A stretch of DNA of 64,000 nt. It comes from Pseudactinotalea terrae. Lineage in GTDB: Bacteria; Actinomycetota; Actinomycetes; Actinomycetales; Beutenbergiaceae. The stretch is taken from assembly GCF_009733845.1 (NCBI RefSeq), contig NZ_WNXZ01000001.1, positions 744,001 to 808,000 of the forward strand, written 5' to 3'. Of the stretch, positions 41,270-48,252 are shown piece by piece. Position 1 is the stretch's first letter. The number at the start of each line of letters is the position of its first letter. Both the position numbers and the translations under genes were made by a program. The notes under the pieces are model-generated. The model had not been told where the DNA came from. It ran no database searches and was given only the letters and a program-made list of their open reading frames with translations.

Positions 41270-41917
41270 TCAGGGTGTGGTCGTCAGTCCGGCCGAGGTG
41301 ACGGCGACCGCCGCGACAGCGCCGAGCACGAGCCAGGGCCCGAACGCGAGCGCCGTGCTGCGGCTTGCCCGCGCGAACGCGAGCAGCACGACGGCGGCGA
41401 GCCCGCCGAGGAGGAACGTGGCGACGACCCCGACGAGCACCGACGTCCAGCCGAACCAGCCCAGGAAGACACCGAGAAGGCCTGCGAGCTTGACGTCGCC
41501 CAGCCCCAGCGAGCGGGGCGAGATCAGTGCGAGCGCCAAGAACGCGAGCCCGAGCACCACCCCGGCCGCGAGTGCACGGCCCAGTGGGTCCCACTGGCCC
41601 TGCTGCGCCGAGACCACGACCAGGCCCGCGACGAGCGTGGCCGCCGTCGGGATCGTCACGACGTCGGGCAACCGATGGCAGTCGAGGTCGACGGCGACCA
41701 GCACGGCACATCCGAGGCCGAGGGCGGCGAACGTGACGAGCTGCAGCCAGCCCTCGGCGAGCACGGCCGCGCCGGCACCGGCCAGCGCGGCGAGCAGGGC
41801 GACGGCGACGCGTGAGGTCCAGGCTCCGGGGTCGCCGGTCACGAGACGGCGCACCGGCAGCGCCGTGGCGATCGCGGCGAGGGCCGTCGCCGAACCGGCG
41901 ACGACCAGGGGGCTCAC
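41270..41917 (-). CDS. Prepilin peptidase, A24 family, catalytic domain only
   Basis: About 215 residues from GTG 41917, whose GTGA overlaps the aroE stop. Seven or eight hydrophobic segments. The two catalytic Asp of type IV prepilin peptidases are in [18 protein letters not shown] and [21 protein letters not shown]. The N-terminal methylase domain with its Cys pairs is absent, so this is the short form (compare archaeal FlaK and some actinobacterial tad-type peptidases). No pilin gene is in the window. A peptidase of this kind between aroE and aroC is seen in several actinobacteria. Confidence 0.88.
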
Positions 41918-42774
41918 GAGCCCGCGACGGCGCCCACCAGGGCCGCGCGCATCGCCTCCACAGGCGCCGGCCGGCCGGTGAACAGCCGTACCTGCTCGCA
42001 CGCCTGGTGCAGCAGCATCAGATAGCCCGGAGCGACCGACCCACCCGAGGCGAGCCACTGGGTGGGCAGCGGGGTGGGCCAGCCCTCGTAGACGACGTCG
42101 ATCAGCGCCTGCGCGGGGTCGAGCGCGGTGGCGGCGACCAGCGGTGCGAGGTCGGCCGATGCGCCGCCGGGCACGGTGCTGATCACGATCTCGGCGTCGC
42201 GGAGCAACCCGCCCGCCCGGTCTGTACCCAGCGCCACGAGCTCGGGCTCGACACCCATCGTCGCTGCGGCGCGCAGCACGGTGCCGGCCCGGCCGAGGCT
42301 GCGAACCAGGACCACCGGGCGGTGGACGCCGAGCTCGCCGAGCGCGGCGACCGCGGAGGCTGCGGTGGCACCGCCACCGATGATCACGCCGCGGCTGCGC
42401 CCGCCCGTGGCCGGCTGCGGCGAGGCCTCCTTGAGCGCCTGCACGAGACCGTAGACGTCGGTGTTGGCCCCGACGCGCAGGCCACCGGGCTGGAAGATGA
42501 TCGTGTTGACCGCGCCGACGGCATCGGCGAGCGGCTGCACCACGTCCACGCACCGCAGCGCGGCCTGCTTGAGCGGCATCGTGAGCGACAACCCGGCCCA
42601 CTCGGCACCGAGTCCGCTCAGGAACCCGGGGAGGTCGGGCTCGTCGACGTCGTGGAGCCCGTAGCTCCAGGCGTCGAGTCCGAGCGCCTGGTACGCGGTG
42701 CGGTGCAGCACCGGGGAGAGCGAGTGCGCCACCGGGTGCCCCAGCACCGCGGCGCGACGCTCGGATGTCGTCAC
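41914..42774 (-). CDS. aroE: Shikimate dehydrogenase
   Basis: About 286 residues from GTG 42774 (VTTSERRAAVLGHPVAHSLSP), 4 bp after the downstream mltG-like stop; an ATG at 42828 would overlap mltG. NADPH-dependent reduction of 3-dehydroshikimate. Substrate site AHSLSPVLHRTAYQALGLDAW and LTMPLKQAALRCVD with the catalytic Lys; NTIIF; GANTDVYGLVQAL; NADP fold GVIIGGGATAASAVAAL. Confidence 0.94.
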   Translation of the reverse strand: MTTSERRAAVLGHPVAHSLSPVLHRTAYQALGLDAWSYGLHDVDEPDLPGFLSGLGAEWAGLSLTMPLKQAALRCVDVVQPLADAVGAVNTIIFQPGGLRVGANTDVYGLVQALKEASPQPATGGRSRGVIIGGGATAASAVAALGELGVHRPVVLVRSLGRAGTVLRAAATMGVEPELVALGTDRAGGLLRDAEIVISTVPGGASADLAPLVAATALDPAQALIDVVYEGWPTPLPTQWLASGGSVAPGYLMLLHQACEQVRLFTGRPAPVEAMRAALVGAVAGS

Positions 42775-42778
42775 CGTC

Positions 42779-43951
42779 TCAGCCCTCGCTCTCGGTGGGT
42801 TCGTCGGCGGCGGCCGACTGCTCCTCACGCCAGCCCTCGAGCCACTCCCGATACCTGGCGCGGTTCTCCTCGTGCTCGGCCGGGTCGTCGGTGAACAACG
42901 TCTCGCCGGTCTCGAGGTTGACGGTGACGAAGTAGCACCAGCTTCCCTCGGGCGGGGCGAGCACGGCCTCGATCGAGGCGGTGCTCGGCGAGTTGATCGG
43001 CGCCGGGGGCAGCCCCTCGAACACGTAGGTGTTGTACGGCGTGCTGTCGTCGGAGAGGTCGTCCAGGGTCAGGTCCGTGACCGCCTTGTCCAGCCCGTAC
43101 GCCACGGTCGAGTTCATCTGCAGCAGGGGGCCGACGTCGGAGCACCCGGCGAGCCGGTTGGTCAGCACCCGGGCGACCCGGCCGCGATCCTCGGGATCCT
43201 TGACCTCCGCCTCCACGATCGAGGCGCGGATCAGCGTGCTCTCACGATCGGCCGGCGCGACGCCGTACTCGTCGAGCACCTCGACCGTGCGGTCGATCAT
43301 CCGCTGCAGCACCTGCAGCAGCGGCTCCTCGGGACCGATCGAGTAGGCCTCCGCGTACAGCCAGCCCTCGGGCCCGCCGTCCGCGCCCTCGGGGAGGGTG
43401 ACCTGGGCGAGCGCGGCCTCGACGTCGGCGACGGGCACCCCCATGACCTCGGCGACCTTCGCGATGATCTGTCCCTGGCGCCAGCCCGGTGGGATCGTCA
43501 GCGTCCGGTCGGCACGGTTCGCGGGGTCCAGCAGCGCTACCACGGCGTCGGAGGCACGCATCTGCTGCGCCAGCGTGTAGGTGCCCGCGCCGATGCCGCT
43601 CGCGGCCTCGTTGTTCGCGTACGCGTCGACGAAGGCATCGGCTGTCGCCACGACGTCCGACTCGACCAGCACGCCGGCGATCGCCTGCGGGTCGGGGTCG
43701 TCGATCACCACCGAGACCACGCCCGATCCTGGGCCGGGGTAGTCCGTGACCGGTTCAGCACCCGGTTCCTCGAACAACGGCAGCACGAGTCGCCACGCTC
43801 CCCCGATCAGCAGGACCAGGGCGATCACGAGCACGACGAGAACCGTCAGGTTCCGACGCCGCCTGTCCCGCACCCGGGAGTGACGGCGGCCCTCGGAGCC
43901 GGAGGTGTCGGTCTGTGACGAGTCCTCGTTCAGCGGTTGGACTCCCGCCAC
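42779..43951 (-). CDS. mltG: MltG-like endolytic murein transglycosylase, second (downstream) copy
   Basis: 390 residues. Cytoplasmic basic tail, membrane segment at ~36-58, then a LysM-like and a YceG catalytic domain outside the cell. The catalytic Glu is retained at about 247 (IRASIVEAEV). The usual EGxLFPDTY stretch reads EGWLYAEAYSI, and the D of the following QxDSTV motif is N (LQMNSTVAYGLDKA), so this copy has diverged. Ends with an acidic tail. Its start overlaps the end of the neighbouring homologue by 22 bp. MltG releases growing glycan strands and sets their length. Confidence 0.88.
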   Translation of the reverse strand: MAGVQPLNEDSSQTDTSGSEGRRHSRVRDRRRRNLTVLVVLVIALVLLIGGAWRLVLPLFEEPGAEPVTDYPGPGSGVVSVVIDDPDPQAIAGVLVESDVVATADAFVDAYANNEAASGIGAGTYTLAQQMRASDAVVALLDPANRADRTLTIPPGWRQGQIIAKVAEVMGVPVADVEAALAQVTLPEGADGGPEGWLYAEAYSIGPEEPLLQVLQRMIDRTVEVLDEYGVAPADRESTLIRASIVEAEVKDPEDRGRVARVLTNRLAGCSDVGPLLQMNSTVAYGLDKAVTDLTLDDLSDDSTPYNTYVFEGLPPAPINSPSTASIEAVLAPPEGSWCYFVTVNLETGETLFTDDPAEHEENRARYREWLEGWREEQSAAADEPTESEG

Positions 43952-45093
43952 TGCTGGTACTCCTCCTTGAACGCCAGGAACTCCTGGTAGTCGCCGGTGA
44001 ACTTGGTCTCACCGGTATCGAGGTTGACGGTGACGAAGTAGCAGTACTCGCCCGCCGGCGGGTTCGCCGCCGCAGCGATCGAGCTCTCCCCCGGTGAGGC
44101 GATCGGGGTCGGTGGCAGCCCGACGATCACGCGGGTGTTGTACGGCGTGTCGGCCGCCCACTCGCTCTGAGTGATCTCGCTCGCAGGCTTGTTCAGCTCG
44201 TAGGCCAACGTGCTGTCCATCTCGAGGCGGCCGCTGTCGTTGCACTGCTGCAAGCGGTTCTCGATCACCTGGGCGACGTTGCCGCGGTCCTCCTCGCGAG
44301 ACACCTCACGCTCGACGATCGAGGCCTTGACGATCACGTCGTGCCACGCATCCTGCGGGACCTCGTTGCGCTCGAGGACGCTCACGGTCATGTCGACCAT
44401 GCCCTGCAGCACGGCCAGGGGCTCGGCGTCCTCGGCGATGGAGTAGGTCGACGGGAACAGCCAGCCCTCGATCGCACCCTCGGCCTCGGCGGGGAGCGTG
44501 ACCTCCGCGGCCGCGGCCTCGACGTCGGCGACGTCCAGCTCCAGCTGCTCCGCGAGGCGTTCGTAGATCTGGGTCGCGCGCCAGCCCTCGGGGACCGTGA
44601 TGCTCGAGTCGGAACGGCTGGCGGGATCCAGCAGCGCGGCCACGGCGTCGACCGCCGGGAGCTGCTGCATCAGGGTGTAGGTGCCCGGCTGGATGCCTGC
44701 CGCGTCGGCGTTCGCGTTGTAGGCGGCGACGAACGCAGGAACGGTCGCGACCACACCGGCATCGACCAGGGTCTGCCCGATCGCCGCGCCGCTGTCACCG
44801 GGGCTGACGACGACCTCGACCGAGCCCACACCCGGGCCGGGGAAGTCGGACGGACCCGAGCTGGGGTCCTCGCCACCGCCGCTGAAGAGCGGACGCAGCA
44901 GCAGGATCGCACCGACGACGATGACGGCGAGGCCGAGCACCATCGCCACGAAGGTGAAGATGGTCCGCTGCCGCTGGGCACGCTTCTTGGCGCGACGACG
45001 CCGCTCAGCACGTGCGCTGCGGTCGGAGGGGCCGGTGTCCTCATGGCCGTCCGAGCCCACGTCCGAGTCGGATTCGTGGAACAGGTCCGTCAC
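43930..45093 (-). CDS. mltG: MltG-like endolytic murein transglycosylase, first (upstream) copy
   Basis: About 387 residues from GTG 45093 with AGGAG upstream; GTGA overlap with the ruvX stop. Acidic then basic N-terminal tail (DLFHESDSDVGSDGHEDTG... to RRRRAKKRAQRQRT), membrane segment at ~45-67, YceG domain with catalytic Glu at about 261 (VKASIVEREVSREEDRG). The EGWLFPSTYSI motif is the standard one, and MDSTLAYEL keeps the Asp. By position (ruvX-mltG-aroE) and motifs this is the orthologue of the single MltG of other actinobacteria. Confidence 0.92.
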   Translation of the reverse strand: MTDLFHESDSDVGSDGHEDTGPSDRSARAERRRRAKKRAQRQRTIFTFVAMVLGLAVIVVGAILLLRPLFSGGGEDPSSGPSDFPGPGVGSVEVVVSPGDSGAAIGQTLVDAGVVATVPAFVAAYNANADAAGIQPGTYTLMQQLPAVDAVAALLDPASRSDSSITVPEGWRATQIYERLAEQLELDVADVEAAAAEVTLPAEAEGAIEGWLFPSTYSIAEDAEPLAVLQGMVDMTVSVLERNEVPQDAWHDVIVKASIVEREVSREEDRGNVAQVIENRLQQCNDSGRLEMDSTLAYELNKPASEITQSEWAADTPYNTRVIVGLPPTPIASPGESSIAAAANPPAGEYCYFVTVNLDTGETKFTGDYQEFLAFKEEYQQWRESNR

Positions 45094-45584
45094 GGGATCT
45101 CCTCTTCTCCCCCTCGATCGGTCTCGAGCAACGTTCCGGCTGGTGAGCCGGTACCCCGTTCGGTGTCGAGTGCGTTCTGCAGGATAAGCACAGCGGCGAC
45201 CTGATCGACTACCTGCCGCTGGGTGCGTCCGCTCCGCCCGGAACGGGTGAGTGCCTGGTGGGCCGTCACGGTCGTCAACCGCTCGTCCACCAGGCGCACG
45301 GGGACCGGTCGCACCGCGTGTGCCAGTCTGGAAGCGTACGCGAGGACGTCCTTGGCGGCGCGTCCTTCGGCACCGGAAAGGCTGCGCGGGAGCCCGACGA
45401 CGACCTCGATCGCCTCCGCCTCGGTAACGATCTCGGTGATCTCGGCGATCTGGTCCTCGCGGGGTGTCCGCTTCAGCGTGGCCACCGGGGTGGCGAGCAT
45501 CCCGGAGGGATCGCACCGCGCGACGCCGATCCGGACCGACCCGACGTCGATCCCGATGCGGGCGCCTCGACGGACCTCAGGCAC
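45090..45584 (-). CDS. ruvX: Holliday-junction-resolvase-like pre-16S rRNA nuclease RuvX/YqgF
   Basis: About 164 residues from GTG 45584, 8 bp before the alaS end. RNase H-fold: GARIGIDVGSVRIGVARCDPSG (catalytic Asp), VVVGLPRSLSGAEGRAAKDVL, PVRLVDERLTTVTAHQAL, and VVDQVAAVLILQNAL (Asp). Trims the 5' end of pre-16S rRNA. Normal length plus a ~20-residue C-terminal tail. Confidence 0.95.
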   Translation of the reverse strand: MPEVRRGARIGIDVGSVRIGVARCDPSGMLATPVATLKRTPREDQIAEITEIVTEAEAIEVVVGLPRSLSGAEGRAAKDVLAYASRLAHAVRPVPVRLVDERLTTVTAHQALTRSGRSGRTQRQVVDQVAAVLILQNALDTERGTGSPAGTLLETDRGGEEEIP

Positions 45585-48252
45585 GCGCCAGCTCGTCCGC
45601 CACCGCTGCCAGGGCGGGCTCGACTGCGCCTGCATCGGTACCGCCGCCCTGCGCGATGTCGTCCTTGCCGCCGCCGCCACCGCCGAGGACCTTGGCCGCG
45701 ACGCGTACGAGCGCACCGGCCTTGGCGCCGACCGCGCGTGCCGCGTCGTTGGTCGCCACCACGATCACGGGACGATCCGCCGCGACACCGGTGAGGGCGA
45801 CGAGCGCCGCCCCGTCGTTGCCGAGCCGGTCCCGAAGATCGAGCACCAGCGTGCGCAGGTCGTCGGCCGAGGAGATGTCGCCGACGTGTTGGAGCACCGC
45901 ACGCACGCCACCGATGTCGCGGGCGGTCTCCACCAGCCCGCCGGCGTTGGCGAGCAGCTGCCCCTGCCGGATCTCGGCGAGCTGCTTCTCGGCGTCCTTG
46001 AGCTTGCCGAGCAGCCCGGAGATGCGCTCAGGGAGCTCCTCGCCGCGGGCGCCGACCAGCTGCGAGAGCTGGCTCACGAGCGCATGCTCCTTGGCGGCGT
46101 ACCCGTACGCGCCCTCACCGACGAGCGCGTCGATGCGCCGGACACCGGACCCGATCGAGGCCTCCCCCAGCAGCGTGACCAGGCCGAGCCTGCCCGTGCG
46201 CTCCACGTGGGTGCCCGCGCACAGCTCCTTGCTCCAGTCGCCGCCGATCGAGACCACGCGCACGTTCCGGCCGTACTTCTCGCCGAAGAGCGCCATCGCA
46301 CCCGCCGCACGTGCGTCGTCGATGTCCATGATCTCGTCGGTGACGTCGAGGTTCTCGGTGAGCTGGCTGTTGACCCGGCCCTCGACCTCGGACAGCACGG
46401 ACGTCGGGACCGAGCTGCCGTGCCGGAAGTCGAAGCGCAGCCGCGAGGGCGCGTTCTCCGAACCCGCCTGCGTGGCCTGCTCACCCAGGTGCTCGTGCAG
46501 CGCCTTGTGCACCATGTGGGTGGCGGTGTGGGCGCGGGCGATCGCACCACGGCGGTGCGTGTCGATGGTCGCCACGCCCGCCTCGTCGAGCGCGAGCGTG
46601 CCCTCGACCAGCCGGCCACGGTGCACGTGCAGCCCCTTGACGGGGCTCTGGACGTCGGCGACGTCCACAAGACCGCCGCCGGTGAACCCGATCGTGCCCT
46701 GGTCGGCGAGCTGACCGCCGGCCTCGGCGTAGAACGGGGTCTGGTCGAGGATGACCTCCACATCGGCCGGTGCCTGCGCGACCTGCGCCGGGACGCCGTC
46801 GACCAGCAGTCCGACGAGGCGGACCTGAGCGGTGTCGTCGGTGTAGCCGAGGAACCTGTCGGAGCCACCCAGGCGGTTCAGCACCTCCTGGTACACGCTC
46901 GCGTCGACGTGGCCCGACTTCTTGGCGAGCGCGTCGGCGCGCGCACGCGAACGCTGCTCCGCCATCAGCGAGCGGAACCCCTCTTCGTCGACCTGCACAC
47001 CCTGCTCAGCCGCCATCTCGAGGGTCAGGTCGATCGGGAAGCCATAGGTGTCGTGCAGCGCGAATGCCTCGGAGCCGGCGAGGACCGGTGTCTTCGAGCC
47101 GCCCTTCGCCCGCGCGACGGCGGTGTCGAGGATCGTGGTCCCGGACACGAGCGTGCGCCGGAACGCGTGCTCCTCCTCGTACGCGACCTGCGAGATGACC
47201 TCGAAGCCCTGCTCGAGCTCGGGGTAGGACTCCTTCATCGCATCCTTGGACACCGGCAACAGCTCCGGCAGCGTCGGCTCGTCGAGACCCAGCAGCCGCA
47301 TCGACCGGACCGCACGGCGGATCAGCCGGCGCAGCACGTAGCCGCGGCCGTCGTTGCCGGGGCGCACGCCGTCACCGATGAGCATGAGGGAGGACCGCAC
47401 GTGGTCGGCGATGACGCGCATCCGGACGTCGTCCTCGCGGACGTCGCCGTAGCGGCGTCCTGTCAGCTCCTGCGTCTTCTCGATGACGCCGAAGACCTCG
47501 TCGATCTCGTAGATGTTGTCCTTGCCCTGCAGGATCGCGGCAACCCGTTCCAGCCCCATCCCCGTGTCGATGCTCGTCATGGGGAGGCCGCCCAGCAGCT
47601 CGTAGTCCTTGCCGGTGCCCGGACCGCGCAGGAACTCGTCGAAGACGAGGTTCCAGATCTCCACGAACCGGTCGCCACCGGTGTCGAGGGCCGGGCCGCC
47701 GTCGGGCCCCCGCTCCGGGCCACGGTCGAGGTGCCACTCAGCGGTGGGGCCGGCCGGCCCGGGCTGCCCGGTGTCCCACGAGGCCTCGGCCCACGGCAGC
47801 GGCACGATCCGGTCGTTCGCGACACCGACCTGTCGCAGCGCGTCACGCGCGACCTCGTCCTCCTCCCAGATGGTCACCCACAGCAGGTCGAGGTCGAGAC
47901 CGTAGCCGCCGTCGTCGACCGATCGCGTCAGGAGGTCCTTGGCGAACTCGATCGCGCCCTCCTTGAAGTAGTCGCCGAACGAGAAGTTGCCGTTCATCTG
48001 GAAGAACGTGCCGTGCCGAGTGGTCTTGCCGACCTCCTCGATGTCGTTGGTGCGGATGCACTTCTGCACGCTGACCGCGCGCGGCCACGGCGGCTCCTCG
48101 GTCCCGACGATGTACGGGATGAACGGAACCATCCCGGCGATCGTGAACAGGATCGAGGGGTCCGGGGACACCAACGATGCGCTCGGCACGATGGTGTGCC
48201 CGCGGTCGGCGAAGTAGGTCAGCCAACGCTGACGGATCTCTGCGGTGCGCAT
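45577..48252 (-). CDS. alaS: Alanyl-tRNA synthetase
   Basis: 891 residues, full length. Aminoacylation core: IRQRWLTYFADRGHTIVPS, then RTNDIEEVGKTTRHGTFFQM and GNFSFGDYFKEGAIEFA (motif 2-type). Editing domain zinc site: RAHTATHMVHKALHEHLG (HxxxH) and KELCAGTHVERTGRLG (CxxxH). C-Ala domain with the Gly-rich stretch GGGGGGKDDIAQGGG. ATG 48252 is preceded by an AGGAA site. Confidence 0.98.
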   Translation of the reverse strand: MRTAEIRQRWLTYFADRGHTIVPSASLVSPDPSILFTIAGMVPFIPYIVGTEEPPWPRAVSVQKCIRTNDIEEVGKTTRHGTFFQMNGNFSFGDYFKEGAIEFAKDLLTRSVDDGGYGLDLDLLWVTIWEEDEVARDALRQVGVANDRIVPLPWAEASWDTGQPGPAGPTAEWHLDRGPERGPDGGPALDTGGDRFVEIWNLVFDEFLRGPGTGKDYELLGGLPMTSIDTGMGLERVAAILQGKDNIYEIDEVFGVIEKTQELTGRRYGDVREDDVRMRVIADHVRSSLMLIGDGVRPGNDGRGYVLRRLIRRAVRSMRLLGLDEPTLPELLPVSKDAMKESYPELEQGFEVISQVAYEEEHAFRRTLVSGTTILDTAVARAKGGSKTPVLAGSEAFALHDTYGFPIDLTLEMAAEQGVQVDEEGFRSLMAEQRSRARADALAKKSGHVDASVYQEVLNRLGGSDRFLGYTDDTAQVRLVGLLVDGVPAQVAQAPADVEVILDQTPFYAEAGGQLADQGTIGFTGGGLVDVADVQSPVKGLHVHRGRLVEGTLALDEAGVATIDTHRRGAIARAHTATHMVHKALHEHLGEQATQAGSENAPSRLRFDFRHGSSVPTSVLSEVEGRVNSQLTENLDVTDEIMDIDDARAAGAMALFGEKYGRNVRVVSIGGDWSKELCAGTHVERTGRLGLVTLLGEASIGSGVRRIDALVGEGAYGYAAKEHALVSQLSQLVGARGEELPERISGLLGKLKDAEKQLAEIRQGQLLANAGGLVETARDIGGVRAVLQHVGDISSADDLRTLVLDLRDRLGNDGAALVALTGVAADRPVIVVATNDAARAVGAKAGALVRVAAKVLGGGGGGKDDIAQGGGTDAGAVEPALAAVADELARA

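Follow-up and report, generated by a model that had tools for sequence, protein, structure and literature searches.

How should two mltG genes lying end to end in one genome be understood, and do their products cut peptidoglycan by the same chemistry? The question is raised by a gene pair in the window analysed here, a stretch of 64,000 nucleotides from Pseudactinotalea terrae (contig NZ_WNXZ01000001.1, positions 744,001 to 808,000 of the forward strand). The gene order on the minus strand is alaS, ruvX, mltG-A, mltG-B, aroE, a type IV leader peptidase gene and aroC, the names of alaS and aroC being read from their own sequences and those of ruvX and aroE assigned by Pfam. The features of the locus, in positions of the window, are as follows.

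43930..45093, minus strand: mltG copy A (upstream), 387 aa, GTG start; a YceG/MltG protein with the canonical active site, E263 and D293
42779..43951, minus strand: mltG copy B (downstream), 390 aa, GTG start; a YceG/MltG protein with E249 and N280
43930..43951, minus strand: overlap of 22 nt between the end of A and the start of B, read from the open frames
43960..43968, minus strand: AAGGAGGAG, Shine-Dalgarno-like, within the end of A and ahead of the GTG of B; read from the sequence, putative in function
43112..43114, minus strand: codon AAC for Asn280 of B, equivalent to Asp293 of A (sequence and alignment)
44215..44217, minus strand: codon GAC for Asp293 of A (sequence and alignment)
43205..43207, minus strand: catalytic Glu249 of B, assigned by column invariance
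44305..44307, minus strand: catalytic Glu263 of A, assigned by column invariance
43343..43369, minus strand: EGWLYAEAY motif of B (EGWLFPSTY in A); the motif also varies in single-copy relatives
45090..45716, minus strand: ruvX, upstream neighbour (Pfam RuvX; synteny); start codon provisional
41914..42774, minus strand: aroE, downstream neighbour (Pfam Shikimate_dh_N and SDH_C; synteny)

A sequence-only reading of this DNA had described two adjacent, overlapping MltG-like genes, and for this genome the description is borne out by the overlapping open frames and by the profile matches. Both proteins score above the cut-offs of Pfam YceG (PF02618; A 227.8 bits, B 198.8 bits, cut-off 32.4) and NCBIfam TIGR00247 (A 139.3, B 107.6, cut-off 103.4), and by these matches both are MltG/YceG proteins. 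They are 49% identical over 346 aa, and a profile search of the genome found no third YceG. The overlap itself is a feature of this genome and was not seen in two congeneric relatives, where, with starts that are provisional, the nearest candidate ATG of B is 2 and 12 nt beyond the stop of A. A and B probably form one operon and would then be co-expressed.

Each sequence has a hydrophobic N-terminal stretch, predicted as a membrane helix at residues 21–60 in the model of B. This model, built from an 11-row alignment, has a mean pLDDT of 85.6 and a pTM of 0.69, and compared with the PDB it gave 10 matches at E-values up to 0.001, all of them MltG/YceG chains. The entries matched are MltG of 8yoa, 4iiw, 8yq7 and 2r1f, with TM-scores of 0.44–0.54 by query length. 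To judge from model and sequence together, B retains the fold of MltG along with its catalytic Glu and a membrane anchor.

The usual state in actinobacteria had been given as a single mltG between ruvX and aroE, and our counts agree. A YceG match is present in 392 of 396 genomes of the order, and 33 of these (counted by eye) have two matches, so that the two-copy state is not usual across the order; as the two matches in G035 and in G365 are one broken gene each, about 31 order genomes have two genes. Within the family Beutenbergiaceae, mltG was found in 24/24 genomes and is double in four, three of this genus and G022. All three genomes of the genus examined (G000, G012, G013) have the pair, each time at the same location. 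Five single-copy family relatives (G016, G020, G011, G001, G023) have the order alaS-ruvX-mltG-aroE, and the pair therefore occupies the ancestral slot. The idea that the tandem duplication is unique was rejected: adjacent pairs occur in eight of the 396 order genomes (G000, G012, G013, G022, G207, G285, G347, G355), and there are more in other orders. In the class, 144 of 148 genomes have a match, 17 have two, four have adjacent pairs (G584, G652, G701, G692) and two have pairs about 1 kb apart (G664, G693).

One order genome, G228 (L083), has the arrangement mltG-aroE-mltG, with the second copy beyond aroE, and in the remaining 22 two-match order genomes the second YceG is located elsewhere. 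Two families carry a second YceG of this dispersed kind. One is f10, with 20 sampled genomes (L091, L092, L225, L228–L244), in which the second YceG of 19 (all but L225) deviates at 4–7 of the 20 near-invariant positions defined below, mostly N-terminal ones, and has Glu or Ala at column 293 in seven. The other is genus g126 of family f37 (genomes of 7–10 Mb), with a second YceG in 10/10 sampled genomes; among the nine listed, this gene is found elsewhere or on a different contig, with the profile match beginning at 63–68, and Asp at column 293 is present in all seven read (L354, L356, L358, L360, L362, L364, L366). No description of a duplicated or paired MltG was found by title or opening of abstract in the limited library searched. 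A passage of PMC8135044 states that B. subtilis has two MltG homologues, YrrL and the germination protein SleB.

A phylogeny of both copies settles part of their history. In a tree of 76 proteins the A copies of the three species form one clade and the B copies another, each with support of 100/100, so the pair is older than the split of the species. The stem of B is longer than that of A (0.68 against 0.31 changes per column) and the tips are alike. On the best trees A and B fall apart, and a constraint joining them as sisters is not rejected (AU p 0.34 with 76 rows, 0.28 with 27 rows). A local tandem duplication, as had been proposed, is likely and is favoured by the adjacency of the genes. 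Other tandem pairs are scattered over the best tree, and from these separate places it follows that tandem duplication of mltG has probably occurred several times.

The two copies appear to be under about equal constraint. Amino-acid identities within the genus are 73, 66 and 69% for A and 74, 70 and 66% for B, and pairwise dN/dS values are 0.30, 0.42 and 0.41 for A and 0.36, 0.35 and 0.49 for B, values from a simple pairwise method which are rough because dS between A and B (0.52–0.64) is no larger than within each copy (0.54–0.64), indicating saturation. On these figures purifying selection acts alike on both, and B looks like a working gene rather than a decaying copy. The neofunctionalisation suggested by the sequence-only reading is compatible with this, since a B as constrained as A fits neofunctionalisation or subfunctionalisation better than decay. 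Its more particular proposal, control of strand length, finds nothing that points to it; the specific change in B sits instead at a position tied to the type of bond cleavage, as we now describe.

Conservation was assessed on 135 single-copy rows read from about 361 one-gene order genomes. Most of these were high scorers, and 30 low scorers, chosen by eye, were included as a control. The second Glu of SIVExE (E263 of A, E249 of B) is the best candidate for the catalytic residue, because it is invariant in 168/168 order rows and the first varies. The first Glu was considered and dropped, being Glu in only 117/170. E218 of E. coli could correspond to either, and as A and B carry both, the claim that the catalytic Glu is retained in the two copies holds. 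The catalytic column has Glu in 135/135 single-copy order rows and in A and B of all three species. We defined as near-invariant those positions with one residue in at least 98.5% of at least 130 single-copy order rows, which gives 20 positions. A deviates at none of these. B departs from them in two places, by the deletion of G99 in its LysM-like region and by the substitution D293N. All near-invariant catalytic-domain residues other than column 293 are present in B of the three species.

Not all of the visible divergence of B is informative. Its departures from the MltG motifs, EGWLYAEAY for EGWLFPSTY and QMNSTV for EMDSTL, are real, as had been noticed, but the EGxLFPxTY change is not specific to B. 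We rejected this motif as a mark of divergence, as its F, its P and sometimes its T vary in single-copy relatives (for example EGWLAASTY). The specific change in B, by alignment, is that of the Asp at column 293 (numbering of A, MDST motif). This column is Asp in 135/135 single-copy order rows, in all four MltG sequences of solved structure that were aligned with the pair, and in A. The Asp of the lytic-transglycosylase type is absent from B of all three species, where it is replaced by Asn in G000 and G013 and by Ser in G012. The MpgA-type combination of Asn with the catalytic Glu is present in B of G000 and G013 and absent from B of G012. Asp to Asn and Asn to Ser are each a single-base change.

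As background to this loss, 12 of 63 order rows from two-copy genomes lack Asp, against none of 105 single-copy rows (Fisher 3.8e-6, the rows being related). This count is without G035 and one G365 fragment and takes the other G365 piece as two-copy; moving that piece to single-copy gives 12/62 against 0/106. The 12 rows have Asn (2), Ser (1), Ala (2), Cys (1) or Glu (6), and each stands beside an Asp-bearing copy. With independent pairs on the 76-row tree, which includes five of the 12 Asp-less rows, the association of Asp loss with two copies is not significant (median p 0.5, three losses). Asp loss is no regular outcome of duplication as read from these sequences, because in other orders of the class 26/26 rows from two-copy genomes keep Asp (13 of the 16 such genomes were read). 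The nine other adjacent pairs read have Asp in both copies with one exception, an Ala. This belongs to G347 (L085), a tandem pair from another family in which the upstream copy 1 has Ala and the downstream copy Asp; its sister genome G355 has Asp in both.

Single-copy rows from other orders have Asp in 19 of 20. The exception, G687 (L382, family f44), has a genome of 1.2 Mb and a single-copy MltG with Asn at column 293 (LQINATIDY), outside the streptococci, which fits the idea of Asn as a functional state. The rule that Asp is lost only beside a second copy was considered: it is true in the order sample, with 0/135 single-copy rows lacking Asp, and fails generally, as streptococci and G687 have Asn. 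Asn can, by these sequences, stand alone.

The streptococcal enzyme gives the column its possible meaning. Streptococcal MltG has Asn at column 293 in 86/86 rows, taken from 57 named records and 29 same-genus genomes (L119–L175, L288–L316; two repeats, 84 distinct), and Asp is found in 177 other rows, 42 from Lactobacillales or Paenibacillus and the 135 of the order. The 42 Bacilli rows were picked for absence of Asn, so that their Asp is partly by construction, and the 135 order rows were not. Column 293 was the only column found to separate the two sets, at a threshold of at least 97% one letter in the others and at most 10% of that letter in streptococci. Eight Lactobacillales rows with Asn were left out of the 177, three of them from genomes redrawn in the genus search (G399, G408, G455). 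With the column removed these eight cluster with the 86 streptococcal rows, at low node support, and all 94 Lactobacillales Asn rows fall in one group. The eight are 0.60–1.00 identical to their nearest streptococcal row, against at most 0.51 for any Asp row.

A residue swap in MpgA was reportedly made by Taguchi et al. in 2021. Streptococcal MltG (MpgA) is described as a muramidase in passages of three papers (PMC8563077, PMC12542702, PMC10269899). According to a passage of PMC8820737, a single active-site change gives MpgA its muramidase mechanism; the passage names S. aureus as the source. PMC10269899 calls N507 of S. suis MltG the enzymatic activity site and reports its change to Asp. The two annotated pieces of that protein total 65 kDa, very roughly 595 aa, which puts N507 some 90 residues before the C-terminus; in the streptococcal rows that were measured, the Asn of LQSN stands 99 to 103 residues before it. 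We infer that column 293 is the reported switch residue of MpgA.

The explanation that we propose is of two membrane-anchored MltG paralogues whose adjacent genes probably form one operon. A, of the ancestral type, would be an endolytic lytic transglycosylase, cleaving nascent glycan strands close to the membrane and producing 1,6-anhydroMurNAc ends. Because B has lost an Asp otherwise fixed in the family its chemistry is most likely altered, and it would most likely be hydrolytic (muramidase-type, giving reducing MurNAc ends) or be a much weaker transglycosylase. In such a cell, part of the newly made strands would be released with anhydro ends and another part with reducing ends, perhaps at separate synthesis complexes. 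Our prediction, from sequence and from analogy with MpgA, is that A works as an ordinary lytic transglycosylase and that B is an MltG of muramidase type, or at least one of altered chemistry; we consider this plausible if not quite probable. More tentative is the full division of labour, one operon with two chemistries set by the Asp/Asn switch within a single cell, which we regard as possible. Counting against the muramidase reading are the Ser in G012, since the position may simply be relaxed, and the other differences in B, such as EGWLYAEAY, which may have effects of their own.

Two serious rivals concern what B does. B may be a paralogue of little or no catalytic activity that is retained for regulation or as a scaffold, its LysM-like region binding nascent strands or A, and may compete with transpeptidation as inactive E. 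coli MltG does in vitro. An otherwise invariant residue is lost in B, Ala, Cys or Glu stands at the column in other two-copy genomes, and the Ser of G012 appears to fit loss of Asp better than selection for Asn, which is why this rival stays serious; a passage of PMC8135044 also reports that the inactive E218Q form of E. coli MltG still lowers crosslinking in vitro. We nevertheless think it unlikely, given that in three species B has kept its catalytic Glu and every other near-invariant residue of the catalytic domain apart from column 293, as dead enzymes do not usually do. That most of the fold and motifs are intact would suit a B that is an ordinary lytic transglycosylase of unchanged chemistry, diverged in partner, timing or strand length and tolerating the Asp change. 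Duplication leaving column 293 as it was is indeed usual, with Asp in both copies in 13/13 other two-copy class genomes read, but the absence of variation at Asp293 in 135 single-copy order rows speaks against tolerance, and we rate this reading, too, as doubtful.

The remaining alternatives touch on origin and survival. The second copy might be a xenologue, acquired from a family relative and inserted beside mltG, a matter of origin and not of function. The separation of A and B on the best trees would fit this, but the sister constraint is not rejected, and in each of the three genomes the genes are neighbours in one conserved slot, which favours duplication, so that transfer seems improbable. 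As for B being a decaying duplicate, the longer stem branch is what such a gene might show, but B is an open frame in three genomes under constraint about as in A, and we consider decay very improbable indeed.

Under our preferred reading, with altered chemistry in B, the locus would offer a natural pair differing at the proposed switch residue in one cell, so that both chemistries become directly comparable. What makes some bacteria leave anhydroMurNAc at their strand ends, and others reducing MurNAc, is to our knowledge an open question. The column also provides a candidate sequence rule, Asp or not Asp at position 293, by which genes annotated 'endolytic transglycosylase MltG' might be sorted.

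Among known systems, MpgA of Streptococcus pneumoniae and S. suis is like B in having Asn where others have Asp, together with the catalytic Glu. The residues that follow differ, IAILY or a close variant in MpgA and STVAY in B, and unlike MpgA, B is without a long N-terminal part ahead of the membrane helix. B also adjoins an Asp-bearing copy, whereas 117 of the 118 streptococcal genomes of the genus search have one YceG match. With MltG (YceG) of E. coli and B. subtilis, A and B have the family, fold, anchor and catalytic Glu in common and A has the Asp as well; B differs in its absence, and the locus in having two full-length copies in tandem. The other actinobacterial tandem pairs (G022, G207, G285, G347, G355, G584, G652, G701, G692) likewise consist of two adjacent YceG genes but, unlike the pair described here, keep the Asp in both copies, save for the Ala in copy 1 of G347.
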